From Nitrospirales bacterium (GTDB taxonomy: Bacteria; Nitrospirota; Nitrospiria; Nitrospirales; UBA8639): DNA of 63,947 bases. Made by a program: the position numbers and the translations under genes. Of this stretch, positions 45,819 to 53,588 are shown piece by piece; position 1 is the stretch's first letter, and each line of letters opens with the position of its first letter. The notes below the pieces were generated by a model. The model made no database searches, was not told the DNA's origin, and saw only the letters and a list, made by a program, of their open reading frames with translations. The DNA is taken from contig BQIW01000013.1 of the NCBI GenBank assembly GCA_021604105.1, positions 1-63,947 of the forward strand, read 5' to 3'.

Positions 45819-47003
45819 ATGGAACCTTTTTACCGAATTCAACGTTTGCCAGGATATGTCTTCTCTCAGGTTCAAGAGTTAAAACTCCAAGCCCGGAAGC
45901 GGGGAGAAGATATCATTGATTTAGGCATGGGCAATCCTGACCAGCCCACACCCCGTCATATTGTAGATAAATTGATTGAAACCGCGCGACTTGGGCGCAA
46001 TCATCGCTATTCGGCTTCACGCGGTATTACGAAATTGCGTCATGCCATTTGCGATTGGTATCAACGAAATTACGAGGTTAGTCTCGATCCGGAGACCGAA
46101 GCCATTGTGACTCTGGGTGTGAAAGAAGGGTTGGCGCATTTAGCCCTGGCCATGGTGGGCCCGGGTGACGTGGTGCTGGCACCGACCCCGACGTATCCGA
46201 TTCATATGTACAGTGTGATTATCGCGGGCGGCGAAATCCGCGGGGTTGAATTAGGGCCGGATTCGGATTTTTTCGAAAATCTGAAAAAGGCCTTCAAGCA
46301 GACACAACCGGCTCCTCGAGCCTTGATCATCAGTTTTCCTCATAATCCAACCACTCGCGTGGTTGATTTGGAGTTTTTTAAAAAAGTCGTGGAGTTTGCC
46401 CTGGAACACCAGGTCTGGGTCATTCATGATCTGGCCTATGCCGATATCGTGTTCGATGGTTACAAAGCCCCCAGCCTTCTTCAAATTCCTGAAGCCAAAC
46501 ACATTGGCGTGGAATTTTACTCTCTCTCGAAAAGTTATAACATGCCGGGATGGCGAGTAGGATTTTGTGTCGGGAATCGTGAAGTTATTGGTGCGTTGAC
46601 GAAGATCAAAAGTTACCTGGATTATGGCATGTTCCAGCCTATCCAAATTGCCAGTATTATAGCCCTGAACGGTCCGCAGGATTGCGTGAAAGAAATTACC
46701 GGACGGTATGAGCGAAGGCGCAATGCTCTGGTCCGCGGCCTCAACCGAATTGGTTGGTCGATCGATTATCCCCGCGCCACCATGTTTGCCTGGGCAAAAA
46801 TTCCACAGCCCTACCTTGGAATGGGATCGTTGGAATTTTCCAAGTTATTGTTACGGGATGCCAAAGTTGCGGTTTCACCGGGCATAGGGTTCGGCGAAGG
46901 TGGCGATGACTATGTTCGCTTTGCATTGGTCGAAAATGAGCACCGGATTTTCCAGGCTGTTCGAGGAATTCGTCAGGCCTTAAAACTGGATGGAGACGCA
47001 TAA
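45819..47003 (+). CDS. Class I/II aminotransferase, AlaC-like
   Basis: The 394-residue PLP enzyme resembles glutamate-pyruvate aminotransferase AlaC. The Schiff-base lysine is in [12 protein letters not shown]. Other blocks are [19 protein letters not shown] (Asn binding the PLP ring hydroxyl), HDLAYADI and [10 protein letters not shown] (carboxylate-binding Arg). It probably makes alanine or another amino acid from glutamate. Its stop overlaps the hom ATG by one base, so it is coupled to aspartate-family synthesis; related operons occur in other phyla. Confidence 0.9.
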
Positions 47004-48313
47004 TGCAAAAGACAATCCAGGTTGGGCTGATCGGGTTTGGTACGGTGGGGACAGGAGTCGTAAAGATTCTTCAGGAAAATAGCAGCCTCATCACGAAACG
47101 TGTTGGAGTTCCGGTGTCACTTGTGCGAATTGCGGACTTGGATGTGAAAACACCTCGCGGGATTTCGGTCCCTCAAGGGGTACTCACGACGGATGTCAGG
47201 GATATTCTGGAGGATTCCGCTATTGATATTGTGGTGGAATTAATTGGCGGGCATGAACCGGCGAAAGGGTTTATTCTTCAAGCGCTTGAACGAAAAAAGT
47301 GTGTGGTCACGGCGAATAAGGCGTTGCTGGCCGATCATGGAGAAGAAATCTTTGAGGCGGCATTTAAGGCAGGCGTTGATCTCGGATTTGAAGCGAGTGT
47401 CGGGGGAGGCATACCCATCCTTCGATCACTCACCGAGGGCTTAGCTGCAAACCGGATCTTATCGATTACGGGGATCATGAATGGGACGTCAAATTATATT
47501 CTGACCCGGATGACCAATGAGCACCGTGATTTTGACGAAATATTACAGGAGGCAAAACAGGAAGGTTATGCCGAAGCCGATCCATCGCTGGATGTGAATG
47601 GCGTGGATGCCGCTCACAAACTGGCTATCATGGTGAACCTTGCGTATGGGACCCCCGTGCCCATGGGAGCCATCTTTACTGAGGGAATTTCCCATATTTC
47701 GACGGTGGACATCGAGTTTGCCCGTGAACTCGGGTTTACCATTAAATTGCTGGGAATCGCGAAACTTCAAGAGCATGCCATTGAGGCACGAGTGCATCCC
47801 GCCCTGGTTCCTGCCGGATCTCCCATTGCACAGGTTAATGGGGTCTACAATGCCATTCATTTGATTGGTGACGCGGTAGGAGATGTTGTGCTCTACGGCA
47901 AGGGGGCTGGATCGCTCCCCACAGCCAGTGCGGTGGTGGGGGACATTATTGATTTGGCACGGAATCGTCTGGCTGAAGTTGCCGGACGGGTCCCTGTGAC
48001 CTCATTCAAATGGGAATCGCGTGAGCCTATTGCCATAAGGCCGATGGACGACATTGAATGCCGGTATTATTTGCGGTGCATGGTCAAAGATCAACCCGGC
48101 GTTTTATCGTCCATATCGGGAATTCTTGGACAGCGTGGAATCAGCATCTCATCTGTTCTGCAAAAAGGGCGAAAGGAAGGTCAAACGGTGCCATTGGTCA
48201 TCCTGACCCATCGCTCGGTGGAGCGAGCCGTTCAATCGGCACTTCAGGAAATTAATGCACTTCCCATGGTGTCAGAGCCAACGACATTCCTTCGGATGGA
48301 AGGGGTGGAATAA
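47003..48313 (+). CDS. hom: Homoserine dehydrogenase
   Basis: The 436-residue enzyme reduces aspartate semialdehyde to homoserine. It has the N-terminal GFGTVGTGVVKIL dinucleotide fold, GIMNGTSNYILTRM and EAQ-region catalytic block YAEADPSLDVNGVDAAHKL, and a C-terminal ACT domain (about 355-430) that usually mediates threonine feedback. It overlaps the aminotransferase stop by one base and is followed by thrC. Confidence 0.96.
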   Translation: MQKTIQVGLIGFGTVGTGVVKILQENSSLITKRVGVPVSLVRIADLDVKTPRGISVPQGVLTTDVRDILEDSAIDIVVELIGGHEPAKGFILQALERKKCVVTANKALLADHGEEIFEAAFKAGVDLGFEASVGGGIPILRSLTEGLAANRILSITGIMNGTSNYILTRMTNEHRDFDEILQEAKQEGYAEADPSLDVNGVDAAHKLAIMVNLAYGTPVPMGAIFTEGISHISTVDIEFARELGFTIKLLGIAKLQEHAIEARVHPALVPAGSPIAQVNGVYNAIHLIGDAVGDVVLYGKGAGSLPTASAVVGDIIDLARNRLAEVAGRVPVTSFKWESREPIAIRPMDDIECRYYLRCMVKDQPGVLSSISGILGQRGISISSVLQKGRKEGQTVPLVILTHRSVERAVQSALQEINALPMVSEPTTFLRMEGVE

Positions 48314-48354: not shown

Positions 48355-49416
48355 ATGATTCCTTGGCGTGGCGTTATCGAGGAATATCGGAAATTCCTCC
48401 CGGTGGGAGAACAGACTCCGATTGTGTCGCTCCTGGAGGGGAATACTCCACTCATTCCGGCAAAGCGCTTAGCCGGGAAAATTTGTCCTGGTCTGGGTTT
48501 GTATCTGAAGATAGAAGGGGCCAATCCAACCGGTTCCTTTAAGGACCGGGGAATGACCATGGCCGTTTCCAAGGCCGTAGAAAGCAAGGCCAGAGGACTC
48601 ATGTGCGCCTCGACAGGCAACACCTCCGCTTCTGCGGCGGCCTATGGAGCGAAGGCGGGATTACCAGTCTATGTTGTTGTGCCGGCAGGGAATATTGCGT
48701 TGGGTAAGTTGACACAGGCGCTCATGCATGGAGGACGAGTCATTCAAATTGAAGGGAACTTTGATCAGGCCTTAACGATCGTAAAAGACTTGTGTCAGGA
48801 AACCGCCATTGAATTGGTCAATTCAATAAACCCGTTTCGTTTGGAGGGTCAAAAAACGGCGGCTATGGAAGTCTGTGACCAATTGGGGTATGCCCCGGTC
48901 ATCCATGCGCTACCGGTAGGGAATGCCGGTAATATTACCGCGTATTGGCGTGGGTATCGGGAGTATCACCGAGCCGGACAAACTCAAGGGTTGCCTCGTA
49001 TGTTCGGGTTTCAAGCGGAAGGAGCTGCACCATTGATCAGGGGTTATATCGTAGAGGAGCCGAAAACCATTGCCTCAGCCATTCGGATTGGCAATCCGGC
49101 CAGCTGGTGTTTTGCCATGGAAGCGGTGGAGGAGTCACACGGATATCTGGACATGGTGTCGGACGAAGAAATTCTTCGAGCCTACCAAATGGTGGCAAGT
49201 GAAGAAGGGGTTTTTTGCGAGCCCGCTTCCGCTGCCTCCCTTGCTGGGATTGACAAAATGAATCGCGCCGGGTTGTTGCCGAAAGAGGGGGACATTGTGT
49301 GTACCTTAACCGGACATGGATTAAAAGATCCGGATACGGCCATCTCCGTCTCCTATCGACCGGTCACAATTCCTGCAACGCATGAAGCGGTCAGAGCGCA
49401 GTTAACGAATGTATAA
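48355..49416 (+). CDS. thrC: Threonine synthase
   Basis: The 353-residue PLP enzyme converts O-phosphohomoserine to threonine. The PLP lysine is in PTGSFKDRGMT, with STGNTSASAAAYGAKAG, PVGNAGN and a C-terminal LTGHGLKDPD block; this is the short plant/archaeal-like class. AGGGGGAC precedes the ATG. It needs phosphohomoserine, yet no classical ThrB homoserine kinase lies in the operon. Confidence 0.96.
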   Translation: MIPWRGVIEEYRKFLPVGEQTPIVSLLEGNTPLIPAKRLAGKICPGLGLYLKIEGANPTGSFKDRGMTMAVSKAVESKARGLMCASTGNTSASAAAYGAKAGLPVYVVVPAGNIALGKLTQALMHGGRVIQIEGNFDQALTIVKDLCQETAIELVNSINPFRLEGQKTAAMEVCDQLGYAPVIHALPVGNAGNITAYWRGYREYHRAGQTQGLPRMFGFQAEGAAPLIRGYIVEEPKTIASAIRIGNPASWCFAMEAVEESHGYLDMVSDEEILRAYQMVASEEGVFCEPASAASLAGIDKMNRAGLLPKEGDIVCTLTGHGLKDPDTAISVSYRPVTIPATHEAVRAQLTNV

Positions 49417-49488: not shown

Positions 49489-50724
49489 GTGCGAAAAACG
49501 ATCGTGATTCACGTCGATGGATTGACGGGACAGTCGTATCAAGAATTAGGAGACCAAACCGTCTTACAATCGGCCCGGACACCGCACCTGGATGAATTGG
49601 CTGGACAGGGTGAACTGGGCCGCTTAGGAGTATCCCGAGAACCCCGTCCCTTCTGCGGGGAAATGGTCCTGCTTGCCTTATTAGGTTACGATACACACAA
49701 ATGGTATACCGGTCCTGGTGCCTTTGAGGCAGGGGGATTGGAGGTTGTTCTGGACTCTCATGATGTGGCTTATCTGTGTCATCTGGTGACTCTCCGCGGT
49801 CAGGATGGATGGGGGGATGGGAAAAAACTTGGTCCCCACCTGTTCATGGCCGACCCCTTTGGTGGAGGAATCGGGACGGAGGATGCCCGAGAGCTCATTG
49901 ATGCCGTCAATGAACAATTGATTTCCGAAAATATTCAATTTTACATGGGCAACCAGCATCGGCATCTTATGGTCTGGGTGGGCGCGAGCGGGAAAGTGGC
50001 CTGTCGCAACCCATACGAGGCCTTAGGACAATCGATCGAGGCGTATCTGCCCGACGGCGATGGATCGCAAATCCTACGTGAACTCATGGCGGCTTCTAGG
50101 GCGATCCTTTGCCATCATCCTGTGAATCAAGAGCGCCTTAGTGCCGGGTTAAAACCGGCCAATTGTTTATGGTTGTGGGGGGCGGGGAAACCTGTGGAAC
50201 TGCCTCAGTTCCAGGAGCGATGGCCGGTCAATGGTATCGTGATTTCGCCTGATGGGCCTTACGTCGGTGTTGGAATGGCCGCCGGACTTCAGACGGTCAA
50301 GCTTGAACATGGGGCAGGGGGAGATATCGCATGGTTGCAGGATATGGCCAATCGGGCTTCGACGGCCTTGGACAGGCATAGCCTGGTTTGTCTGCACATT
50401 CCCTTTTGCGAATGGGGATTGAAGGATGGACAGGCGGTGCCACCCTCACAATTAGTGGAATATCTCCAGCAGGTGGACGAACAGGTCATTGGAGCCATAC
50501 AGCAGTCCGTTGGACGCCACGACTCCATCCGGATCGTCGTCCTGGTTACGTCATGTCCGAATTGGCAGAAGAACGGAGGGTCTTCCATATCGCCCTATCT
50601 GGTGTTTGAAGGGGAAGGGGAAAAATCCGAACATCATGCGGTACCAATGAATGAACGTGAGGTAGCCAACCGCCCACTTCGTGATGCCACCAAACTCTTT
50701 GAGCGATTAATGGTCACTCACTAA
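49489..50724 (+). CDS. ApgM-like protein (proposed homoserine kinase family), active site degenerate
   Basis: The 411-residue protein aligns by eye with the archaeal-type cofactor-independent phosphoglycerate mutase family; a clade of this family found in threonine operons is annotated as proposed homoserine kinase. The fold markers are kept: [42 protein letters not shown]. Key residues are not. The usual nucleophile-plus-ligand P-G-S-D before xxxLLGYD reads F-C-G-E. The D-E-A-x-H metal motif reads E-W-G-L-K in [13 protein letters not shown]. The D-H-P-T-P motif reads S-C-P-N-W in VTSCPNW. Only the first aspartate (D9) remains. It sits between thrC and lysC. It may be a pseudoenzyme, a regulator, or a divergent enzyme. 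Confidence 0.75.
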
Positions 50725-50729
50725 AGCCT

Positions 50730-51965
50730 ATGGCGCTGTATATTCAAAAATTCGGCGGTACATCAGTAGGGAGCCTGGAACGTATCCAAAACGTGGCTCG
50801 ACTTATTGAAGGTACCTACAGGGAGGGGCATCAACTGGTGGTCGTGTTGTCCGCGATGAGCGGGGAAACGGATCGCCTCATGAAGATGGCCAAGGCCGTG
50901 AGTGTCGACCCTGATGATCGGGAGCTGGATGTGTTACTGTCTTCTGGAGAACGGGTCACGATTGCCTTGATGGCGATGACTCTCAAAAGTCTTGGGATCA
51001 GGGCGCAATCCTTTACGGGACGTCAGGTTGGGATTGTGACCGATAGCATGCATACCAAGGCCCGGGTCTCCCGTGTCGATACGGATCGGGTACGGGGAGC
51101 CTTGGGTGACGGGATTGTGCCCATCGTGGCCGGGTTTCAAGGTATTAACGCCGCCTCCGATGTGACGACGTTAGGGCGCGGCGGGTCGGATTTGACGGCC
51201 GTGGTCTTGGCGGCGGCGCTCAAGGCCGATACCTGCTTTATTTATACCGACGTGGATGGGGTATACACTGCCGATCCCAATGTGGTGCCGGGCGCGAGGC
51301 GGTTGGATAAAATCTCCTATGAAGAAATGTTAGAGTTAGCGAGTCTGGGTGCGAAGGTCCTCCAGTCTCGTTCGGTGGAATTGGCGGCTAAATATCAGGT
51401 GCCTGTGGAAGTGCGATCCAGCTTTCAAGGCGGGCCTGGAACCTGCGTGGTAAAAGAGGATGTCGATATGGAAGAAGTCCTGGTCTCGGGGGTCACGGGC
51501 GATCGGAATCAAGCCAAGGTCACGGTGGTCGGGGTGCCTGATCACCCTGGAATTGCGGCTACCTTGTTCTGCTCCATTGCCGACGCCGCCATCAATGTGG
51601 ATATGATTATTCAAAATGTGAGTCAGGATTCCCTGACGGATATTTCCTTTACCGTACCGAGAGCTGACCTTCCTCGAGGGATGAGTCTTATCAGGGATAT
51701 TGCCAAATCAGTGGAAGCTCGGACGGTCGGGGTGAATGAAGCCATTGCCAAAGTTTCATTAGTGGGAGTGGGAATGCGTTCGCATTCGGGTGTCGCAGCC
51801 AGGATGTTTCAGACGCTCTCACGTGAAGGCATTAATATCATGATGATCAGTACATCGGAAATTAAGATCTCTTGTGTAGTGGAAGAAAAATATATGGAAT
51901 TAGCAGTTCGGGCCTTGCACCAGGAGTTTGAATTAGAAGGACCTCCGGGGAGCGGAAAGGCCTAG
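50730..51965 (+). CDS. lysC: Aspartate kinase
   Basis: The 411-residue enzyme phosphorylates aspartate, the first step to lysine, methionine and threonine. Motifs: [13 protein letters not shown] at the N-terminus, [33 protein letters not shown], and two ACT regulatory domains from about 265 ([22 protein letters not shown] and [19 protein letters not shown]). It starts five bases after the ApgM-like gene, so they are tightly coupled. Confidence 0.97.
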
Positions 51966-51977
51966 GCATGGTGATGT

Positions 51978-53588
51978 GTGTCGATATTGATGTTGCGTAT
52001 GCGTGATATGAATTCTCAAATTCCAGTCATTGAAATCTACGATACGACCCTCCGGGATGGTGCGCAGGCGGAAGATGTCAGTTTTTCGGTGGAGGATAAG
52101 GTTCGTATCGCCCTTAAATTAGATGAGCTAGGGGTTCATTTCATAGAAGGAGGGTGGCCGGGAGCCAACCCCAAGGACATCGAGTTTTTCCAAGTCATGA
52201 AATCGACTCCATTGCAGCACGCTAAAATCGTGGCATTTGGTTCGACGCGAAAAGCCAAAAATACGGCAAAGGCCGATCCAACACTGGAAGCCCTCCTATC
52301 CGCTGAGACGGATATTGTGACCATCTTTGGAAAAAGCTGGACCCTCCATGTGACGGAAGCCTTGGAAACCACGTTGGCCATTAATTTAGAACTGATTGCC
52401 GATTCCATCTCCTATCTCCGGTCCAGGGGACGGCAGGTGTTTTACGATGCCGAACATTTTTTCGATGGCTATAAAACGGATCCCGTCTACGCGATAAAAA
52501 CTATCCAGGCTGCGGCGGAAGCCGGAGCGGAGCGGATCGTGTTGTGCGATACTAATGGGGGAACGATGCCATGGGATATTGGTGAGATCTTTGCGAAGGT
52601 CGGCAAGAACTGTTCTGTGCCGTTAGGCATCCACGCACACAATGATGCGGAGATGGGGGTTGCCAATTCATTGATTGCCGTGCAAGCGGGAGCGATCCAG
52701 GTCCAGGGCACGATCAATGGCATTGGAGAACGGTGCGGGAATGCCAACCTGTGCTCCGTCATGGCCAATTTGGAATTAAAAATGGAGCGAACAGCGCTGG
52801 GGAATGGACGGTTAGCACATCTTCGCACCATTTCTCATTATGTGGGCGAGATGGCCAATCTGACTCCCAATAAACGGCAGCCTTATGTGGGAGATACCGC
52901 GTTTGCTCATAAGGGGGGGGTGCATATTCATGCGGTACAAAAAAATCCGCTCACTTATGAACATGTGAATCCTGATATCGTCGGCAACCATCGCCGCGTA
53001 TTAATTTCCGATAGTAGTGGCCGGAGTGCCGTATTTGGAAAGATGGAAACTTTCGGCCTGGACCTGCCTCAGGATAATCCCAAGGTACTCGAATTACTGG
53101 ATTCCCTCAAAACGTTGGAATATGAAGGCTACCAATTTGAAGGCGCAGAAGGGTCTTTTGAATTATTAGTGCGGAAAGCCATGGGGACCTATACCCCATC
53201 TTTCGAATTTCTGGGGTGCCGGATCATTGTTGAAAAACGGAAAACCCATGAAGACCCTATTTCCGAGGCCACAATTATGGTCAAAGTCGGGGAGGTGGTT
53301 GAGCATACCGCGGCGGTCGGTGATGGGCCAGTGAATGCTCTCGATCATGCCCTTCGGAAAGCGTTGGAGCATTTCTATCCGCAGTTAAAGGAAGTCAAGC
53401 TTCTGGACTATAAGGTCCGTGTGTTGACCGGGCGGCATGGAACCGGTTCTCGTGTGCGAGTCCTGATTGAGTCGGGGGATCACAAGGAGAAATGGGGAAC
53501 GGTCGGGGTATCGGAGAACATCATTGAAGCCAGTTGGCAGGCTCTGGCCGACAGTATTGAGTATAAGCTCATGAAAGAGAAGCCGTAA
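51978..53588 (+). CDS. cimA: Citramalate synthase
   Basis: The 536-residue enzyme condenses pyruvate and acetyl-CoA to citramalate, opening a threonine-independent route to isoleucine. It has the HMGL-like TIM barrel (IYDTTLRDGAQAEDVSFS, HAHNDAEMGVANS, GTINGIGERCGNANL) and a C-terminal LeuA-type dimer/regulatory domain (about 400-530). Its full-length barrel with EGGWPGANPKD distinguishes it from 2-isopropylmalate synthase. The start is uncertain: GTG 51978 is given, but ATG 52008 is equally likely; neither has a good ribosome-binding site. Confidence 0.93.
   Translation: MSILMLRMRDMNSQIPVIEIYDTTLRDGAQAEDVSFSVEDKVRIALKLDELGVHFIEGGWPGANPKDIEFFQVMKSTPLQHAKIVAFGSTRKAKNTAKADPTLEALLSAETDIVTIFGKSWTLHVTEALETTLAINLELIADSISYLRSRGRQVFYDAEHFFDGYKTDPVYAIKTIQAAAEAGAERIVLCDTNGGTMPWDIGEIFAKVGKNCSVPLGIHAHNDAEMGVANSLIAVQAGAIQVQGTINGIGERCGNANLCSVMANLELKMERTALGNGRLAHLRTISHYVGEMANLTPNKRQPYVGDTAFAHKGGVHIHAVQKNPLTYEHVNPDIVGNHRRVLISDSSGRSAVFGKMETFGLDLPQDNPKVLELLDSLKTLEYEGYQFEGAEGSFELLVRKAMGTYTPSFEFLGCRIIVEKRKTHEDPISEATIMVKVGEVVEHTAAVGDGPVNALDHALRKALEHFYPQLKEVKLLDYKVRVLTGRHGTGSRVRVLIESGDHKEKWGTVGVSENIIEASWQALADSIEYKLMKEKP

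Follow-up and report, generated by a model that had tools for sequence, protein, structure and literature searches.

Whether the homoserine kinase of the Nitrospirales is encoded where one would expect it is the question raised by one gene of the contig analysed here, whose full 63,947 nucleotides we refer to as the window. The gene (49489..50724, + strand) encodes an ApgM/TIGR02535-type protein of 411 amino acids, with a GTG start and no internal stops and, as an earlier note on this DNA had it, lies between thrC (threonine synthase, 48355..49416, +; TIGR00260, 304 bits against a cut-off of 167) and lysC (aspartate kinase, 50730..51965, +). The conserved operon is opened by a DapL/AlaC-like aminotransferase gene (45819..47003, +), followed by hom, encoding homoserine dehydrogenase with an ACT domain (47003..48313, +), then thrC, the gene in question, lysC and the citramalate synthase gene cimA (51978..53588, +). 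In the Nitrospirales loci that bear it, the gene is always found in this same slot between thrC and lysC, that is, together with genes of threonine biosynthesis.

By sequence comparison, the protein is assigned to the ApgM/TIGR02535 type within the alkaline phosphatase superfamily. Pfam PF10143 matches residues 39-213 (E 3e-33), and both this domain and the fold place the protein in the ApgM superfamily. Its scores fall below the thresholds of the narrower families: 237 bits against TIGR00306 (cut-off 320), 230 bits against TIGR02535 (curated cut-off 446.3, passed within the Nitrospirales only by genomes of the family we label f27), and just 81 bits against NF038358, the model for the phosphonoformyl transferase PhpG, a member of the same superfamily that belongs to another operon. 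The role of TIGR02535 proteins (ThrB2) as homoserine kinases is itself a proposal, for which GapMind reported genetic support along with a failed complementation: mutants in BT2402 of Bacteroides thetaiotaomicron are rescued by threonine, yet the gene failed to replace thrB in E. coli (PMC7311316). ThrB2 has been predicted in gut Bacteroidetes and Firmicutes, gut genomes are reported to carry thrB and thrB2 in a complementary pattern (PMC9026213), and BT2402 retains its zinc sites (PMC9765024). The window protein resembles ThrB2/BT2402 in sequence family, length, fold and operon position beside thrC and hom, but differs in its score, in its catalytic residues and in the shift of its conservation to the cap domain. 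With the archaeal 2,3-BPG-independent phosphoglycerate mutase ApgM (2zkt, 3kd8; TIGR00306) it shares the overall fold, while differing in sequence (about 24% identity), in its lack of the metal site and in its threonine operon context. An AlphaFold structure (mean pLDDT 89, pTM 0.90) finds its best solved match in the Pyrococcus horikoshii protein 2zkt (Foldseek E 2e-26), with a Z score of 35.8 over 358 residues and an rmsd of 4.2, and the complete ApgM fold is thus predicted to be retained.

Seven alignment columns, which we take to be the ligands of the two metals and the serine that carries the phosphoryl group in iPGM chemistry, distinguish the window protein from its relatives. Mapped against 17 intact-site relatives and PDB 2zkt, these columns read D-S-D-H-D-H-H in the family, being invariant in all 17 relatives, which come from other families of the phylum, with 2zkt in agreement; in the window protein they read D-G-E-Q-T-S-G, so that one of the seven metal and nucleophile residues is retained. 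This residue is D10 (49516..49518, +), the first metal aspartate, which the earlier note had correctly described as kept, and it lies in the N-terminal part of the alkaline-phosphatase-type core (codons 1-78; 49489..49722, +). In the same part, column mapping bears out the proposed alteration of the PGSD segment, now F55-C56-G57-E58, with G57 (49657..49659, +) at the position of the phosphoryl-accepting serine. Next comes the cap domain (codons 79-235; 49723..50193, +), and then the C-terminal, metal-binding part of the core (codons 236-411; 50194..50721, +), which holds five of the seven columns and keeps none of them. There, E308-W-G-L-K312 (50410..50424, +) replaces DEAxH and TSCPNW (residues 354-359; 50548..50565, +) the DHPTP region, from which the Asp-His pair is absent, both as had been read by eye. 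This last third aligns at only 22% identity, and its columns may be shifted by a residue or a few; an alternative pairwise alignment sets K312 opposite the histidine and V353/T354 opposite Asp-His, and no placement brings the ligands back. A sequencing artefact is ruled out, as 16 additional genomes of the same genus (52-96% identity) all retain one of seven. With six of these seven residues replaced, classical phosphotransfer by this protein should not be possible.

The sequences indicate that residue decay is order-wide, graded and confined to one part of the protein, a pattern that the earlier note did not describe. All seven residues are found in the 17 relatives outside the order and in family f3, whereas the maximum among 80 named Nitrospirales genomes is five. 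Family f27 retains six and five ligands, with Asn for the Asp of the Asp-His pair; f2, the sister family of the window's own, ranges from five down to one; and in f1, the window's family, the count is always one in the window's genus and three to zero in the other genera. On our reading, f1 corresponds to the GTDB family UBA8639 and f2, which includes Nitrospira defluvii and N. moscoviensis, to the Nitrospiraceae. Which ligands were lost first varies by clade, being the first Asp and the Ser in genus g6 and the last His residues in g7, and the replacement at position 308 differs even among close relatives (E, A, I, P or S). The f2 copies with five ligands, among them those of N. defluvii and N. 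moscoviensis, could, judging from these residues, retain a one-metal or weak activity.

These two copies (L272:5001-6233 and L304:5001-6197) combine a partial metal site with TIGR00306 scores of 352 bits (N. defluvii) and 334 bits (N. moscoviensis), above the cut-off of 320, and automatic annotation may wrongly call them active phosphoglycerate mutases. Outside the order, a separate and complete loss of the metal site (0/7) is seen in G131 of family f4 (L145 / L088).

Purifying selection acts on the gene and is concentrated in the cap. In the window's own family, Nei-Gojobori estimates for pairs below saturation give a dN/dS of 0.07-0.26 (mostly 0.12-0.19) for the whole gene, two to three times the level of its neighbours (thrC about 0.02-0.10, lysC 0-0.08). 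Within the gene, the cap evolves at about 0.04-0.11 and the C-terminal metal domain at about 0.12-0.35, with most pairs at 0.24 or above; in f2 this contrast is weaker and noisy, and reversed in two of nine pairs. Intact relatives conserve all three segments to about the same degree (one representative pair: 58-60% identity). In the C-terminal domain, mean entropy rises from 1.20 bits in the intact set to 2.06 bits in the degenerate set (+0.85 bit), whereas in the cap it goes from 1.19 to 1.12 (-0.07). This contrast was reached in none of 20000 site permutations; the test is descriptive, since sites depend on one another and we drew the segment borders ourselves. Throughout the degenerate set, eight cap residues do not vary (K112, K113, G115, N141, E142, Q143, E147 and Q150); all are already present in f27, and several also in f3 and f4, and they thus predate the complete loss of ligands. 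The cap motifs HRHL, HPVNxxR and PANCLWLWG are likewise conserved. A predicted enzyme fold, lost catalytic residues and orthologues under purifying selection together mark the protein as a putative pseudoenzyme.

The gene is missing from otherwise intact operons in f1/g2 (14 genomes without a match), f1/g4, f28 and f5, where thrC adjoins lysC, and no remnants are evident in the intervening gaps of about 20-180 bp. The presence and absence of the gene require four changes on a tree built from a concatenation of Hom, ThrC, LysC and CimA. In G197 the copy is disrupted by several stop codons; all other frames listed are open. Since several lineages have deleted it, the gene would seem to serve a useful but dispensable function. 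In the genera without it, the operon still contains hom and thrC (55-62% and 59-71% identical, respectively, to those of the window), and these genera must therefore have another route to threonine. Of the options raised at the outset, that the true kinase lies elsewhere is strongly favoured by these thrC-bearing operons from which the gene is absent and by its disruption in G197.

The search for such a kinase covered three known families (canonical GHMP-type ThrB, APH-type ThrB and the shikimate-kinase-like enzyme DvMF_0971, known from Desulfovibrio; PMC5764234), which catalyse the expected step but have folds unrelated to that of the window protein; in the Nitrospirales genomes sampled, none of them was clearly recognised. 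Canonical ThrB (TIGR00191, cut-off 168 bits) scores over the cut-off in none of 40 members of the order, and is absent at that level from the genomes of f1, f2 and f28. The thrB search that had been suggested for the window's own genome (G000) likewise gave no match over the cut-off, the best, at 48 bits, being an HddA-like gene beside an HddC-like gene, which we reject as the kinase on these grounds. APH-type ThrB (TIGR00938) has no match in G000 and none over the cut-off in f1, f2 and f28; every genome has an APH protein, which at both loci examined (G081 and G110) is followed by a MurU-like gene and is in that sense AmgK-like, and it was also rejected. A single SKI match, the usual number in f1, f2 and f28, is present in G065, G081, G189, G182, G133, G137 and G155, and G000 has, besides AroK, a second, weak one (37 bits); AroK adjoins AroE in both genomes examined. 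There is one GHMP kinase in G065, G081, G182, G133, G147 and G060, while larger genomes contain more than one such protein; that of G065 was discarded, being IspE-like and beside Prs. In general, the GHMP, APH and shikimate kinase proteins that we examined individually adjoin genes of other pathways. Other families of the class, f3, f4 and f5, do carry canonical ThrB over the cut-off, so that the gene's decay or loss in f4 and f5 is paired with a replacement kinase; the presence of ThrB in G131, with its 0/7 copy, and in G139, with no copy, shows that kinase replacement can accompany decay. Our literature search gave no relevant match for Nitrospira with homoserine kinase and no description of the situation in Nitrospira, and the main text of the N. 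moscoviensis model paper mentions neither threonine nor homoserine.

We conclude that the product of the window gene is very probably not the homoserine kinase. The explanation that we favour overall, and consider reasonably probable, is that it is a ThrB2-derived pseudoenzyme, kept for the binding of a ligand or partner through its cap. The gene would have descended vertically, in the same operon slot, from TIGR02535 proteins, the proposed phosphotransfer homoserine kinases. In the Nitrospirales ancestor, another enzyme would have taken over O-phosphohomoserine synthesis, and the piecemeal loss of ligands that we see may reflect the lifting of selection on the binuclear metal site that followed. 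The product, probably still ApgM-folded, would carry its remaining function in the cap domain, whose binding partner is most likely a metabolite of the pathway (homoserine, phosphohomoserine or threonine) or an enzyme of the operon, and the protein could thereby tune flux at Hom, ThrC or LysC. The earlier idea of a regulator or scaffold fits the cap-focused purifying selection, while the role itself stays conjectural: that the cap has a maintained function tied to the threonine pathway seems to us evenly balanced. Slightly more tentative is the combined proposal that Nitrospira and its relatives have an undescribed family of homoserine kinases and that their ThrB2 homologue has been turned into a sensor or scaffold for the aspartate-family operon, working through the cap domain and without catalysis.

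That the gene is instead a relic in plain decay, with polarity on lysC or mere chance keeping its frame open, is unlikely. It would account for the lost ligands, for a dN/dS above that of the neighbours, for four clean losses and for the stop codons in G197; however, the frame is open in nearly all genomes of two families, the cap evolves nearly as slowly as the housekeeping neighbours, and its conservation is not below that of intact enzymes, with new residues fixed. Polarity, moreover, would not preserve a single domain.

Another possibility, which we judge improbable, is that TIGR02535 proteins were never the kinase, so that even the intact members would have an accessory part in threonine synthesis, with the kinase generally being one not yet recognised. 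The behaviour of BT2402, needed for growth without threonine yet unable to replace E. coli thrB, is what such a role would predict. In our phylum survey, however, none of the 17 intact references falls among the 28 genomes with ThrB over the cut-off, the occurrence in gut genomes is reported to be complementary, and an accessory role would have no need of the seven catalytic residues that are invariant in intact members.

Least probable of all is that the protein is still a catalyst, producing phosphohomoserine (or performing another phosphotransfer) by a rebuilt active site without the seven canonical residues: it does occupy the exact slot of the kinase, with conserved cap motifs and in genomes where we recognised no further homoserine kinase of a known family, but genera without the gene need another route anyway, and the different mechanism that the earlier note had considered is disfavoured by residues of the old active site that vary within a genus and by a former catalytic domain that is the least conserved and fastest evolving part, the opposite of how an active site behaves.

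The Nitrospirales amount to a natural experiment on TIGR02535 function, in which a graded series from intact-site relatives to one residue of seven to absence is found in the same operon. The protein would also be an example of a pseudoenzyme in which one domain holds the constraint while the catalytic domain erodes, and it is a warning that these genes should not be annotated as phosphoglycerate mutase. More broadly, a threonine-pathway enzyme is missing from the recognised repertoire of globally important nitrite oxidisers, one of which, N. moscoviensis, has been studied in mineral medium, where it grows on nitrite and CO2 (PMC8407350).

Two further observations were made in the course of this analysis. 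A second ThrC-like protein (35-39% identity) is encoded in nearly all genomes of the class that we examined, in several of them roughly 2 kb away from a PLP protein resembling CysM (G000:C169:3698-4711 and C47:15563-16585; G141:C1:1132261-1133271; L123 in G065:C7). In the related genome G157, the second TIGR02535-type protein, rejected as a substitute for the window protein, is a true PhpG (570 bits against the NF038358 cut-off of 545). It is encoded in a cluster (L097:91-4499; G157:C1, about 1137590-1142000) of genes for an aldehyde dehydrogenase, an NMNAT-like nucleotidyltransferase, PhpG and an enolase-like protein, which resembles a phosphinothricin-type phosphonate module and is unexpected in the Nitrospirales.
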